This document shows positions 1 through 5,662 of a stretch of DNA of 20,928 bases, piece by piece. Source of the DNA: a virus. Numbering within the stretch: the stretch's first letter is position 1; each line of letters opens with the position of its first letter. A model generated the notes under the pieces. That model saw nothing but the letters and a program-made list of their open reading frames with translations, did no database searches and had not been told where the DNA came from. The DNA lies in IMG/VR virus record IMGVR_UViG_3300042294_001868, positions 1-20,928 of that record; one strand, written 5' to 3'. Both the position numbers and the translations under genes were made by a program.

Positions 1-461
1 TTAGCCTCAAGGGCTTTTACCAACCCGGCCAATGCCAAGGACTGGGCGTTAGCCGCGGTGTTCGTGGACTGGACAGCCGCGTTGCCGTCGTCGTCTTCAT
101 CCGCCACAACACCAATCGCAGCGGCCAGTGAATAGCGCTTGGCGTATGTCATCGCGGAGCCGTAACCGTGCGCGTCGTGCTTGCCAACGGGAATCGAGAA
201 TTCCGCACGCATCCACTGGCCACCGTGAGCAAGGCGGGTGACAAGGTGTAACCGCCCATCGTCGGAGTGAACAGGCCACTGAGTGACGGCGATTTTGTGC
301 TTCGCCAGTGCCTGTCGGCAGGCCGTCCAGACGGAAGCCAAGTCGGCGTACTTGGAACGAAACGCCGGGTTAACCTTGTCCTTCATGGCCGGTTCAATGT
401 CGCCCTGCGCGGCAGCTAAAGCCGCGTCCAGCTTGTCCGTCTCTGTGCTTGTCTCAAACAT
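1..461 (-). CDS. erf: ERF-family single-strand annealing recombinase (3' end cut by window)
   Basis: ERF proteins bind single-stranded DNA and anneal complementary strands during phage recombination and genome circularisation. The frame is open from an ATG at 461 to the window edge, giving 153 residues. It carries family hallmarks: NPAFRSKYADLASVW near residue 32, a central LHLVTRLAHGGQW segment, then HGYGSAMTYAKRYSL and an acidic ADEDDDGNAA stretch near residue 130. Family members are usually about 180 to 250 residues, so a variable C-terminal part lies outside the window. The start overlaps the end of the small acidic gene before it by 8 bases, which suggests translational coupling. It is the last visible gene of the leftward operon driven from the PL-like promoter near 1340. 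The family assignment is strong; the symbol follows the P22 family founder. Confidence 0.9.
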   Translation of the reverse strand, partial: MFETSTETDKLDAALAAAQGDIEPAMKDKVNPAFRSKYADLASVWTACRQALAKHKIAVTQWPVHSDDGRLHLVTRLAHGGQWMRAEFSIPVGKHDAHGYGSAMTYAKRYSLAAAIGVVADEDDDGNAAVQSTNTAANAQSLALAGLVKALEA

Positions 462-600
462 CGTCGTCCTCGCTCAAAATCAGTTCCCAATCCTCATCAC
501 TGAGAATCAGCATGTCGTCGGATTCCTCAGAGGGCTCAACGAACCACAAGTCATCCCAGAATTCCGGCTCGTCGCCGCGCGGCAAATGCGGGTCAACCAT
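454..600 (-). CDS. small highly acidic protein, 48 aa
   Basis: This short ORF begins with ATG at 600 and ends with TGA at 454-456. It encodes 48 residues, of which 19 are Asp or Glu and only one is Arg or Lys, with three Trp. It overlaps the preceding gene by 8 bases and the erf start by 8 bases, and otherwise a gap of about 130 bases would be left in a tightly packed operon. No family is recognised. Small, very acidic early phage proteins are sometimes DNA mimics or inhibitors of host nucleases; that is only an analogy here. A GAG about ten bases before the ATG is the only Shine-Dalgarno-like element, so coupling to upstream translation is likely. Confidence 0.6.
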   Translation of the reverse strand: MVDPHLPRGDEPEFWDDLWFVEPSEESDDMLILSDEDWELILSEDDDV

Positions 601-778
601 GGCGGTATGCTCGGTAGTTGAATTCGCGCTCAAATTCCTCGCGCTCGTCGTCCTCGAGGTCGTCCCAAGAGCAGCCGGGGAACATTTCGTCCATCAGGTT
701 GCGGCTGATGCGCGCCATCGAATCGCGCTCGATGCGCTCGTCAGTCAGGCCGCGCGGGTACAGTTCGGATTCATCCAT
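593..778 (-). CDS. hypothetical charged protein, 61 aa
   Basis: ATG at 778 lies one base after the TGA of the small membrane protein, and the stop overlaps the next start by 8 bases. The 61-residue product is hydrophilic and charged, with a dense acidic run WDDLEDDEREEFEREF near the C-terminus and a basic end. It shows no membrane segment or Cys pair and resembles no family I can name. Its place between an uncharacterised first gene and a recombinase suggests an early accessory role during phage takeover, but this is context only. Confidence 0.6.
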   Translation of the reverse strand: MDESELYPRGLTDERIERDSMARISRNLMDEMFPGCSWDDLEDDEREEFEREFNYRAYRHG

Positions 779-779
779 G

Positions 780-893
780 TCACCACCTCACACAAATCAA
801 AATCACCACAAACGCCACGCACAGCAGTTCCAAAACCCACCCAACCCAATCGGCCTTGATGATTGGGCGGGGCTTGTAGTCGTGGCGAATCAT
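780..893 (-). CDS. small single-pass membrane protein, 37 aa
   Basis: The start chosen is the ATG at 893, which shares ATGA with the stop of the preceding gene. The frame is open further upstream, but there it runs antiparallel through the previous gene. The product has a polar N-terminus (MIRHDYKPRPIIKADW) and then one hydrophobic helix, VGWVLELLCVAFVVILICV, ending in Arg-Trp. This is the layout of a tiny inner-membrane protein. The next gene begins one base after its stop. Function is unknown; small early membrane proteins of temperate phages often act in superinfection exclusion or physiology, but nothing here proves that. Confidence 0.55.
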   Translation of the reverse strand: MIRHDYKPRPIIKADWVGWVLELLCVAFVVILICVRW

Positions 894-1288
894 CGGGGCA
901 CCGCCATGAAGTCGCGGTGACGGGCCTGATTCTCGGCGTTCACGTCGTAGTTGATTTCGGGGTGTTCGTCGTGCCATTCATCCAGCGCCGTCTCCCATTC
1001 CTGCTCGGCCTGCGTTTCCAGTTCGTGCATGAGCAAAGCGCAGGCGGAAGCGGCGAACGCGCGGCCAGAAGCCGCGAACCAGGCGGGCTCGTCAAAGCGG
1101 CTTTCAATCAAATCGGCCAGCTTGTGCGTGAACACAGCGGCAAACTGGGATTCAGAGGACGCCGCAACGCATGCATCAAAGCCGTCGCCCCTGAGAATCT
1201 GGGCGCAGATTTCCATCTGCACCATCGGGGCGAGGGTGTGCCATTCCTGGCCTTCGCAGTGCTCGCGGATTAAGTCGCGGTAGCTCAT
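890..1288 (-). CDS. hypothetical protein, first gene of leftward operon, 132 aa
   Basis: ATG at 1288 is chosen because GGGAGG sits five bases before it; the frame runs on to 1381 but would cross the operator and promoter. The 132-residue protein begins MSYRDLIREHCEGQEW and is mostly helical, with many Ala and Glu and two Cys, and no signal or membrane segment. I do not recognise a family. It is the first gene after the PL-like promoter, so it should be among the earliest proteins made. Its ribosome binding site can be buried in a leader hairpin (1294-1327), which hints at translational control. The stop overlaps the following membrane-protein start as ATGA. Confidence 0.75.
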   Translation of the reverse strand: MSYRDLIREHCEGQEWHTLAPMVQMEICAQILRGDGFDACVAASSESQFAAVFTHKLADLIESRFDEPAWFAASGRAFAASACALLMHELETQAEQEWETALDEWHDEHPEINYDVNAENQARHRDFMAVPR

Positions 1289-1293
1289 TTGTG

Positions 1294-1327
1294 CCTCCCA
1301 TGCCGCTGTTTGTGCGGCTGTGGGAGG
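1294..1327 (-). promoter_or_regulatory. leader hairpin sequestering the first-gene Shine-Dalgarno
   Basis: Read on the minus strand, CCUCCCA (1327-1321) pairs perfectly with UGGGAGG (1300-1294). Inside that, GCCGC pairs with GCGGC around a seven-base loop, with a 2/1 internal loop between the stems. The right arm contains the GGGAGG ribosome binding site of the gene starting at 1288. No U tract follows, so it is not a terminator. The predicted PL start near 1322 falls within the left arm, so PL transcripts would lack most of it while read-through transcripts from the repressor gene would fold fully. Confidence 0.6.
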
Positions 1328-1328
1328 A

Positions 1329-1357
1329 AGTAAAGCATACGCTTTGCGGGCAGTCAA
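1329..1357 (-). promoter_or_regulatory. PL-like leftward early promoter
   Basis: On the minus strand there is TTGACT at 1357-1352, a 17-bp spacer, then TTTACT at 1334-1329 with TG one base before it (extended -10). The predicted start is near 1322, about 34 bases before the ATG at 1288. The layout matches the rightward promoter at 1831-1859 base for base in spacing. Palindromic sites overlap both elements, consistent with repression by the neighbouring helix-turn-helix repressor. Confidence 0.6.
1331..1346. promoter_or_regulatory. operator site 1 (left pair, on -10)
   Basis: TAAAGCATACGCTTTG contains the inverted arms AAAGC and GCTTT around four bases. It overlaps the -10 element of the leftward promoter. 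Its centre is 23 bp from site 2, the same spacing as sites 3 and 4. Confidence 0.55.
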
Positions 1358-1387: not shown

Positions 1388-1789
1388 TTAGGTTTCGGCT
1401 TTGCGGGTTTCGCGCTTCGTAGCGTCCGCGAGTTTCTGCTCGAGGTTGGTGTAGCGGGGGTGGGCCGGCATGGCCAGGGACTCAACGATGCCCAGCACGT
1501 GGGCCTGCACGGGCGGGGCAAGCAAGTGGAATGCGTCAACCAAGCGCTGCGTTTTCTTTGGGAGCGTCGCTGGCTCGTCGTGCTCTGAGCCCGTCATTAG
1601 CCATTGAACGGACACCCTAAGCCTGTGACTTAAAAGCGGAAAGTGTTTGCGTGAAACGCGCCCAGTTTGCAGCCAGCCCGTTACCGCTTGAAGTGACACG
1701 CCGCAAAGCTCGGCCAGCTCTGTATTGCTCACGCGCTCGCGCTGCATGGCGAATTTGAGGCGTTCAGCGATGTCGGCTTTTTCGAGCAT
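1388..1789 (-). CDS. CI-like phage repressor, short helix-turn-helix type
   Basis: The 133-residue protein has an N-terminal XRE-type helix-turn-helix at about residues 18 to 48, with NTELAELCGVSLQAVTGW as the two DNA-binding helices. After it come about 70 residues with no recognised domain and a charged tail. A full lambda-type repressor is about 200 to 240 residues and carries an S24 (LexA-like) self-cleavage domain, which is absent here. Its position between PL-like and PR-like promoters, transcribed left, matches lambda cI. No Shine-Dalgarno precedes the ATG. A TAAAAT box six bases upstream of the ATG predicts transcription starting at or next to the A of the start codon. It probably represses both outward promoters by binding the four palindromes and maintains lysogeny. 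An alternative is a Cro-like second regulator. Confidence 0.8.
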   Translation of the reverse strand: MLEKADIAERLKFAMQRERVSNTELAELCGVSLQAVTGWLQTGRVSRKHFPLLSHRLRVSVQWLMTGSEHDEPATLPKKTQRLVDAFHLLAPPVQAHVLGIVESLAMPAHPRYTNLEQKLADATKRETRKAET

Positions 1790-1824: not shown

Positions 1825-1834
1825 AAACACTTGA
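1819..1834. promoter_or_regulatory. operator site 3 (right pair, on -35)
   Basis: TAAAGCAAACACTTGA matches the AAGCnnnCGCTT core of the left sites with one mismatch. It overlaps the -35 element of the rightward promoter with the same 4.5-base offset from centre to first -35 base as site 2. Confidence 0.5.
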
Positions 1835-1859
1835 CCGCAAAGGCAGCATATGCTTTAGT
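1831..1859 (+). promoter_or_regulatory. PR-like rightward early promoter
   Basis: TTGACC at 1831-1836, a 17-bp spacer and TTTAGT at 1854-1859 with an extended TG form the promoter. The predicted start is at 1866 or so, which is the A of the cro-like ATG. It is overlapped by operator sites 3 and 4. Confidence 0.65.
1842..1857. promoter_or_regulatory. operator site 4 (right pair, on -10)
   Basis: GGCAGCATATGCTTTA contains the perfect palindrome AGCATATGCT and overlaps the -10 element of the rightward promoter. It differs from the AAGCnnnnGCTT core at one arm position. Its centre is 23 bp from site 3. Confidence 0.5.
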
Positions 1860-1865
1860 TCGCAC

Positions 1866-2063
1866 ATGAACGCACTAAAGTATGCAGTTGACCTCGCAGG
1901 CGGGCAGGCGTCGCTTGCCAGAGCGCTATCCGTATCCGACCAGGCCCTTAGCCAATGGGTGCACGGAAAGCGGCCAATCCCAATTCGGCGCGCAATTGAT
2001 ATTGAGCGGCTCACCGCAGGAAAGGTGACCCGTGCTGAATTGAGGCCGGACATCTTCAAGTGA
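1866..2063 (+). CDS. Cro/YdaS-like transcriptional regulator
   Basis: The 65-residue protein is almost entirely one helix-turn-helix. ASLARALSVSDQALSQW at about residues 15 to 31 is followed by VHGKRPIPIRRAIDIERL, the pattern of YdaS/Cro-type regulators that recognise an operator and then list the replacement start of a chromosomal or phage repressor circuit. It is the first gene of the rightward operon, opposite the repressor, where lambda has cro. The ATG lies about where the PR transcript should start and has no Shine-Dalgarno, so its mRNA is probably leaderless. The stop overlaps a GTG (GTGA) that opens the next small ORF. It likely turns down early transcription and helps commit to lysis. 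Confidence 0.85.
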   Translation: MNALKYAVDLAGGQASLARALSVSDQALSQWVHGKRPIPIRRAIDIERLTAGKVTRAELRPDIFK

Positions 2064-4339: not shown

Positions 4340-4670
4340 CGACATCCCCCAGGGGTTGCCCAACGAAGAATCCGTGTCCCGCGCTTTGCACTACCTCGCG
4401 AGAACGGATGAGCCGTATGCCAGGGCCGTGGCCCAGAAGGAAGCCTCAGAGGCTCGGTGGAAGATTTCCCGCGAGCTGGCGTTTCTGGCAAGCGAGGGAA
4501 CTGTTGCGGAACGACAGGCGTCTGCGGCCACCAGCGCAAGCGCAGTTCAAGCAATGGAACGCTACGAGGAAGCGGTGGTGCAGTTGGAACTGCTGAAGGC
4601 GAAACGGAAGCGGGCTGAGCTGGTGATTGACGTTTGGCGCAGTCTTGAGGCGAGCCGCAGGAGGGCGTGA
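4332..4670 (+). CDS. hypothetical coiled-coil protein, 112 aa
   Basis: ATG at 4332 is preceded by AGGTG at about seven bases; a GTG two codons upstream is possible. The 112 residues are almost wholly helical. The C-terminal half (AMERYEEAVVQLELLKAKRK and on to VIDVWRSLEASRRRA) looks like a coiled coil. I recall similar short proteins in the middle region of Pseudomonas-type temperate phages without assigned function. The stop overlaps the next gene by four bases (GTGA). Confidence 0.6.
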   Translation: MTDDIPQGLPNEESVSRALHYLARTDEPYARAVAQKEASEARWKISRELAFLASEGTVAERQASAATSASAVQAMERYEEAVVQLELLKAKRKRAELVIDVWRSLEASRRRA

Positions 4671-4915
4671 AGGTGCCGTTTTTTTACCTCGCATACAACA
4701 AAAAAGAGCGGGAGGCGCTCAAAAAAAAGGCAATGGCAAGCGCGAAGCAATGCACAAAATGCCTTAAGAAGAAACCAATAGACGCGTTTTTTAGGCGAAA
4801 GAGAAGCGCGGACGGCCATTTTAGTTGCTGCAAGGAATGCCACCGCAAGTTCCCCTCGGAACTGGAAAACGCAAAAGTGAATCTCGAAAAACGATACAGG
4901 GGGTTTGAAACTTGA
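4667..4915 (+). CDS. Cys-rich zinc-finger protein, endonuclease-associated module
   Basis: The frame starts with GTG at 4667 (a second GTG at 4673 is better spaced from GGAGG) or at ATG 4733. The core CTKCLKKKPIDAFFRRKRS and GHFSCCKECHRKF forms a four-Cys zinc module. It is often found fused to HNH or endonuclease VII domains in phage and bacterial proteins. Here it stands alone and overlaps the next gene, an HNH nuclease, by four bases, so the two may act together. This gene is richer in A+T than its neighbours, with runs of six and eight A, which suggests recent arrival. Start uncertainty is real; if 4733 is used the protein is 60 residues. Confidence 0.6.
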   Translation: MKVPFFYLAYNKKEREALKKKAMASAKQCTKCLKKKPIDAFFRRKRSADGHFSCCKECHRKFPSELENAKVNLEKRYRGFET

Positions 4916-5385
4916 GCCTGCTCATTACCCCGGCGGATTCCGCGTTTTCCAAGTGCGTCCGGGAGCGGGCCGAATGGTACTGCGAGCGATGTGGAACGCA
5001 TTACGAGCACAAGCCGCAGGGGCTTCACTGTTCCCACTACATGGGCCGGGGGAACTGGGCGACAAGGTTCCATCCGAGGAACGCGCTGGCACTGTGCTAC
5101 GGCTGCCACCAGTACGTCAGCAGTCGGCCAAACGAACACAGCGACTTGATATGGGGAATACAGGGCGTCGTGGCAGTGGATGCGTTACGCGCTTTGGCGA
5201 ACAAGCCAGCAACGGGTTTGCGGAAAAAAGTTTCGTTGATAGCGAAACATTATCGGGATGAGTTAAAGCGCATGCAGGGCTTGAGGCAGGGCGGAATAGT
5301 TGGGCGGCTGGAATTTTTGTTGGCCCCGCAGTGCCCGGACATTGACACGCCGACGTGGCGAATGGCTATGGGAGACGACGCATGA
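4912..5385 (+). CDS. NinG/Rap-like HNH recombination nuclease
   Basis: The gene starts with TTG at 4912 after AGGGGG, overlapping the previous stop. The 157-residue protein has a CERCG knuckle at about residues 24 to 28, then LHCSHYMGRGNWATRFH and NALALCYGCHQYV, about residues 38 to 68. This Cys pair, His-rich strand, Asn and second Cys pair is the HNH arrangement of the NinG (Rap) family, which cuts branched recombination intermediates. The C-terminal helices (about 95 to 130) are also typical. Placement in the middle region after the replication genes, as ninG is in lambda, supports this. It would complement the ERF annealing protein. Confidence 0.75.
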   Translation: MSLLITPADSAFSKCVRERAEWYCERCGTHYEHKPQGLHCSHYMGRGNWATRFHPRNALALCYGCHQYVSSRPNEHSDLIWGIQGVVAVDALRALANKPATGLRKKVSLIAKHYRDELKRMQGLRQGGIVGRLEFLLAPQCPDIDTPTWRMAMGDDA

Positions 5386-5450
5386 CGCTTTACACCGGCT
5401 CGGGCTCACTGCCGCGTCCGGATGTCTGGACTGTGGAGCACTTCGCATGA
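5382..5450 (+). CDS. 22-codon mini-ORF bridging two genes
   Basis: ATG at 5382 shares ATGA with the NinG-like stop, and its TGA shares ATGA with the next start at 5447. The peptide MTLYTGSGSLPRPDVWTVEH ends with Phe-Ala. The double four-base overlap fills an otherwise odd 61-base gap and may carry ribosomes between the two genes. It could be a real micropeptide or only a coupling device. Confidence 0.4.
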   Translation: MTLYTGSGSLPRPDVWTVEHFA

Positions 5451-5662
5451 CATGGCACGCAATCCAAGGCGGTTACAACCAGCACCCGTATCAGGTGCGC
5501 TGGGTGTCCGGAGGGAAATGGCTTGCGCGGTTCAACCATGGCCGGGGCATGCCGGAGCACCTGGGTACATTTGCCACCGCGAACGAGGCCAAGGCGGCGT
5601 GCGAGGGGCATCGCATGGGCAAGGCGGAAGAGTGGCAGGAATGCGGGTGGGGTGACAAATGA
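5447..5662 (+). CDS. small AP2-like domain protein B, 71 aa
   Basis: ATG at 5447 begins MTWHAIQGGYNQHPYQVRW. The core GGKWLARFNHG, then HLGTFATANEAKAACEGHRM, is a clear match to the pattern of AP2 domains: two strands, a turn, a third strand ending LG, and a helix starting TxxEA. It is a diverged paralogue of the 56-residue protein at 3970-4140. A short acidic tail follows. The stop overlaps the next gene as ATGA. It is likely a DNA-binding accessory protein; its target is unknown. Confidence 0.65.
   Translation: MTWHAIQGGYNQHPYQVRWVSGGKWLARFNHGRGMPEHLGTFATANEAKAACEGHRMGKAEEWQECGWGDK

Follow-up and report, generated by a model that had tools for sequence, protein, structure and literature searches.

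How might the left operon of a temperate phage be kept silent in a lysogen, if transcription of the repressor gene can run on into it? The question is raised by a temperate-phage fragment, a 20.9-kb virus record analysed here over its whole 20,928 nucleotides (the window), which carries cI- and cro-type genes, a primosomal-type gene, a terminase and a portal, and whose left operon lies on the minus strand behind cI. A likely answer is that the start site of the RNA gates a translational lock at PL, the early leftward promoter, although the start site, the read-through, the effect on translation and the coupling of downstream genes are all inferred. Computation shows a hairpin, a dependence of its folding on the RNA 5' end, the lack of a detected terminator, and a complementarity that recurs in other leaders and is leader-specific.

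The coordinates of the features are collected in Table 1. The product of the first left-operon gene has no Pfam or PHROG match. Relatives of this gene, of the repressor and of cro were searched for, and only a sister record (L007), identical here, was found, together with a single homologue of the first gene that is not identical to it (44%), carried by the L009 phage; the homologue searches gave no cultured relatives of the first gene. Four open reading frames follow it, each with a start codon that overlaps the stop of the one before or lies almost next to it. The sister record is identical over the left end of the window and carries the left operon further, with genes that, read from their translations, we take to be SSB-like, C5-methyltransferase and tyrosine integrase genes. 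Left-operon genes reading as a C5 cytosine methyltransferase and a tyrosine integrase are at positions 1038-2399 and 4543-5607 of that record.

Table 1. Positions in the window of the genes, promoters and leader elements discussed
Feature	Position	Strand	Remarks
ERF-type single-strand annealing protein	1..461	-	start overlaps preceding stop; family by similarity to proteins annotated as ERF
Three small ORFs	780-893, 593-778, 454-600 (span 454..893)	-	chained stop/start codons behind first gene
First left-operon gene	890..1288	-	132 aa; ORF start at 1288
3' arm TGGGAGG	1294..1300	-	includes Shine-Dalgarno (SD) GGGAGG (1294-1299) of first left-operon gene
Inner stem-loop GCCGC-ACAAACA-GCGGC	1302..1318	-	retained in PL RNA, about 3 nt from predicted 5' end
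5' arm CCTCCCA	1321..1327	-	PL discriminator (-10 to +1), complementary to SD
PL -10 TTTACT	1329..1334	-	17-nt spacer; overlapped by operator-like palindrome AAAGCGTATGCTTT; same layout at PR
PL -35 TTGACT	1352..1357	-	overlapped by operator-like palindrome CAAGCGTTCGCTTG (1355-1368 region)
cI-type repressor	1388..1789	-	133 aa; presumed origin of read-through RNA
PR (TTGACC, 17 nt, TTTAGT)	1831..1859	+	+1 predicted at the A of the ATG of cro (1866)
cro-type regulator (YdaS / P22 Cro family)	1866..2063	+

The initial annotation had claimed that a 12-bp hairpin buries the GGGAGG of the first left-operon gene, and this part held. On the minus strand, CCUCCCA (1321-1327) is perfectly complementary to the SD region UGGGAGG (1294-1300), and GCCGC (1314-1318) pairs with GCGGC (1302-1306) to form an inner stem; the two stems are split by a 2x1 internal loop and total 12 bp. 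The 64-nt segment has a minus-strand folding energy of -25.1 kcal/mol (z -3.27; 1 of 200 shuffles equally good), but the plus strand of the same segment is more stable (-33.3), and fold stability alone therefore cannot tell which strand matters. Opening the SD of the first gene costs 11.9 kcal/mol, the highest value among the 29 SD-bearing start candidates in the window (median 2.4). Of 20,000 shuffles of the 29-nt leader, 38 placed an equally good arm within its first 8 nt.

Two other identities for the leader were rejected. A known regulatory RNA was dismissed because no Rfam family model matched within 1100-2200, up to E=1. A lambda-type nut or antitermination leader was dismissed because boxA was not seen on inspection of the short leader; the first left gene, checked in this connection, lacks an arginine-rich start like that of N and matches no family.

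Where does PL RNA begin? PL is weak by generic consensus and went unreported in the automatic promoter scan. Its layout (TTGACT, 17 nt, TTTACT) matches that of the phage's own PR (TTGACC, 17 nt, TTTAGT, 1831-1859), and paired operator-like palindromes, 23 bp apart, are found at both promoters. Transcription from PL is predicted to start at A1321 or C1322, a position that has not been mapped, and PL RNA would then carry little or none of the arm. The SD opening cost, computed by folding, depends on the RNA 5' end: it is 12-14 kcal/mol with a 5' end far upstream, 11.8 with one at 1327, 6.1 at 1324 and 2.2 at 1321/1322. The annotation's proposal that the PL start (about 1322) lies within the left arm, such that PL mRNA is mostly free of it, agrees with the predicted start at 1321/1322, which is unmapped and competes with a second -10 candidate. 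Its further proposal that read-through RNA would fold and be silent while PL RNA is translated is supported by folding only (12-14 versus about 2 kcal/mol).

The operator-like palindromes span 1333-1370 at PL and 1816-1855 at PR, and a third related copy lies at 1873-1893, inside the start of cro.

The identity of the -10 box is the main uncertainty, and the lock prediction hangs on the 1321/1322 start. TATGCT (1334-1339) is as close to the -10 consensus as TTTACT (4 of 6 each). Were it the real -10, the start would be near 1327, the arm would be kept and PL RNA itself would be silent; the first gene would then have to be opened by an unknown factor or be poorly translated. This alternative appears unlikely. 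A mere 12 nt would separate TATGCT from TTGACT, a 17-nt spacer with the arm directly after the -10 box is seen again in other leaders, and the same reading of the boxes at PR puts the start exactly on the cro ATG.

With the start at 1321/1322, the lock would work as follows. The six to seven bases from the -10 box to +1 would double as an anti-SD arm. RNA arriving from upstream, by cI read-through from PRM or from other upstream promoters, would carry the arm, the SD would be occluded and the first left gene would go untranslated. RNA initiated at PL would begin at or just past the last bases of the arm, leaving the SD free for translation. In a lysogen, CI would repress PL and the left operon would be translationally silent, despite active transcription of the repressor gene and the lack of a terminator. 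The overlapping downstream genes would be silenced via translational coupling or Rho polarity. Thus, the original suggestion that lytic proteins are kept off in a lysogen has to be amended, as only the first gene is directly buried and the rest need coupling or Rho polarity. The lock would reach beyond the first gene if the downstream open reading frames are coupled or Rho ends the untranslated RNA; this too is inferred.

Does RNA from the repressor gene reach the leader? No RNA was measured, but read-through from cI is plausible, since no terminator-like site was detected between cI and PL in the window; on this point, too, the annotation held. The cultured phages Haddon, KS9 and Rb1 likewise have the arm and no detected terminator, whereas in most armless cultured phages a terminator separates cI from PL. 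The latter is the arrangement of lambda, phage 21, D3, F10, PAJU2, YA3 and BcepC6B, where a terminator lies between the cI operon and PL and the arm is absent. Such a terminator resembles the lock in that it would shield the left operon from cI transcription, and differs from it in stopping transcription, not translation. Among metagenomic leaders the split is less clean, and several that bear the arm also have a terminator predicted by a mechanical terminator rule. The idea of a strict mutual exclusion of arm and terminator was dropped for this reason. What remains is a trend only, not significant over all leaders by our own count; an earlier hand tally (P=0.005) is superseded and should not be relied on.

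Is the arrangement confined to this phage? Apparently not: judged from sequence alone, complementarity between discriminator and SD is present in a dozen or so otherwise unrelated phages besides that of the window. With neither promoter nor arm taken into account, a search for the pattern GCCGCACAA...GCGGC...GGAGG gave 41 contigs. Five independent leaders (the window, L009, L108/L110, L125 and L134) are at a TTGAC/TTGCT-type promoter downstream of a repressor gene or a fragment of one, and in 5/5 of these the SD is paired with bases between -10 and +1. A later screen took promoters downstream of repressor genes, irrespective of any arm, together with cultured phages; the repressor-anchored part added L074, L157 and L153 as new arm cases, and the checks of cultured phages added Haddon, KS9 and Rb1. 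A PL discriminator complementary to its own SD, with differing sequence and spacing, is found in L134, L125, L043, L039, L083, L074, L157, Haddon, KS9 and Rb1. These arm-bearing leaders belong to cI-type temperate phages of GC-rich hosts, and the last three phages, of Pseudomonas, Burkholderia and Xanthomonas respectively, are cultured and are thus candidates for direct testing. For several leaders (Haddon, KS9, Rb1, L125, L134 and L009) the -10 boxes and SDs were picked by eye.

The sharp fall in SD opening cost with the position of the 5' end was also computed for L125, L134 and Haddon; Rb1 has a good arm, yet its computed change is small (1.9 kcal/mol). BPP-1 shows a 5-bp match. The arm is absent from BcepC6B and F10, and by inspection no such arm was seen in D3, YA3, MPK9, PAJU2, SC_9, phage 21, lambda or P22, whose leaders are mostly long.

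The immunity region of L009, the closest homologue, differs from that of the window. The L009 leader retains the inner stem and the SD, and its PL start is predicted at the equivalent A; the outer arm is weak, and there is a possible, predicted terminator upstream. The inner stem and the start of the loop are the same as those of the window in L009, L108, L125 and L134. This raises a rival explanation, that conservation concerns the inner GCCGC/GCGGC stem-loop, which would sit at the very 5' end of PL RNA and guard it against 5'-end-dependent decay, and that the outer arm is incidental. In its favour, L009 keeps the inner stem and loop start of the window but has a weakened outer arm, and GCCGCACAA...GCGGC is common to five leaders. 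Against it, L083, L157 and L039 have the arm without the inner stem, and the match of arm to SD is leader-specific. As a replacement for the lock this explanation seems improbable, but protection by the inner stem and a lock on the SD are mutually compatible roles.

A nearly identical inner hairpin (GCCGCACAA..GCGGC) is present in otherwise unrelated PL leaders: the window (1302-1318), L009/L119, L108/L110, L125 and L134. It is commoner than we expect by chance and might represent a mobile leader module or a conserved RNA motif.

Is the complementarity more than a by-product of base composition? Pyrimidine-rich discriminators (CTCC-A) could be favoured in the promoters of GC-rich hosts, and their complementarity to GGAGG would then be accidental. 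Most arms are indeed rich in C and T. In 44 promoter-SD-gene units from the loci fetched by then, complementarity to the SD peaks just after the -10 box (15% high scores versus 0-2% elsewhere); this comparison, over offsets from -40 to +55, was exploratory. An ERF-anchored test set (L144-L223), mostly with GC below 0.5, showed no positional enrichment (1/23). When a wider range of offsets was taken in the pooled set, offset -50 scored about as high as the discriminator (13% versus 14%). The positional peak is therefore weak evidence, and the case was rested on a swap test instead.

In the swap test each arm was judged by its own SD and by swapped ones. Over 21 leaders the own match exceeds the swapped (13.9 versus 11.1; P=0.00002), with the same P=0.00002 when the window is excluded; the 12 leaders found after the idea give P=0.0004. 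In GC-rich loci the discriminator hides the SD better than every substituted one in 28% of 18 units (7% expected). The arm-SD pairing is thus leader-specific on average, with the reservation that some boxes were chosen by eye and start sites are predicted. Swapped pairs already score fairly high, at 11.1, which speaks for accidental complementarity. Own pairs nevertheless exceed swapped ones, also in the later-found set; the arms track the flanks of the SD (GGCTCC/GGAGCC, TCTCTCCA/TGGAGAGA, TTACCTCG/CGAGGTAA), and no such character is seen in the discriminators predicted for PR in these phages. An accidental origin is accordingly regarded as unlikely.

One could also regard the inverted repeat as a DNA operator for another regulator, for example a ribbon-helix-helix-like protein encoded at 2207-2428. 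The repeat adjoins the PL operators, and the putative ribbon-helix-helix gene, a weak match, is nearby. However, the spacing and sequence of the arm vary freely among phages, following the SD, and the variable arm-SD spacing favours RNA pairing over one DNA site. This is the least likely of the explanations considered.

In the pooled promoter-SD units of the fetched loci, a second, unexplained rise in SD complementarity is seen about 50 nt upstream of the end of the -10 box.

The logic of such a lock is already known from T4. In T4 genes e (lysozyme), soc, 49 and I-TevI, the long RNA folds, buries the SD and is silent, while RNA from the late promoter is without the 5' strand and is translated (PMC3014915). 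As proposed for PL, the DNA that codes for the helix's 5' strand contains the gene e promoter, whose own RNA is translated (PMC3014915). The annotation's comparison with the start-dependent design of e and soc is supported by computation, as the SD is occluded in folds of the longer RNA and the pairing recurs in other leaders, with the place of the promoter at the arm predicted only. There are differences. T4 is strictly lytic and its late promoters separate early from late expression, whereas the phage of the window has a repressed early promoter behind a temperate-phage repressor gene, and its arm is confined to the discriminator. In IS10 and IS50, transcripts entering from outside hide the transposase SD and RNA from the element's own promoter does not; there, unlike in the window, the arm is near the end of the element, and what it protects is the gene of a transposase instead of the lytic operon of a phage. 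A limited search of open-licence literature found no report of this logic at repressor-flanked early promoters of temperate phages.

Could translation of cro be tied to the RNA 5' end as well? In the window (1831-1866), L108, L043, L039, L083, L074 and L157, but not in L040 or Haddon, transcription from the best predicted PR would begin at the ATG of cro. By promoter position, cro is predicted to be leaderless in the window and in those six phages, and its translation would thus also be tied to the start of its own promoter. Leaderless cI and cro mRNAs are documented in phage PY54 (PMC4488713); the predicted PR RNA of the window likewise begins at ATG, tying translation to the RNA 5' end. This is a route of gating other than the PL lock, and in PY54 it concerns PR/PRM, not PL.

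A bolder reading, held tentatively and judged rather more apt to fail than to hold, is that many temperate phages of GC-rich proteobacterial hosts gate both lytic operons by promoter identity. The PL discriminator, as an anti-SD, would silence RNA started upstream, and leaderless cro at PR would be read only from RNA started at the AUG. If true, gating at PL and PR together would insulate the lysogen from read-through without a terminator. For PL alone, the lock would mean that a temperate phage can guard lysogeny against read-through without a terminator, and that the stretch from -10 to +1, usually seen as a mere promoter feature, can encode a translational lock. The arm-SD match would also offer a simple signature by which PL promoters and start sites could be located in the sequences of uncultured phages.

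Three minor observations concern the regions around cI and cro. The cI gene of the window begins 7 nt after a TAAAAT box (1796-1801), found by eye. A separate palindrome-like element, GGGAACATTTCCC, is at 1804-1816, between the cI start and the right operators. Beyond cro, a 161-amino-acid open reading frame (2432-2917) has only a partial match to a phage DNA helicase family and looks truncated.
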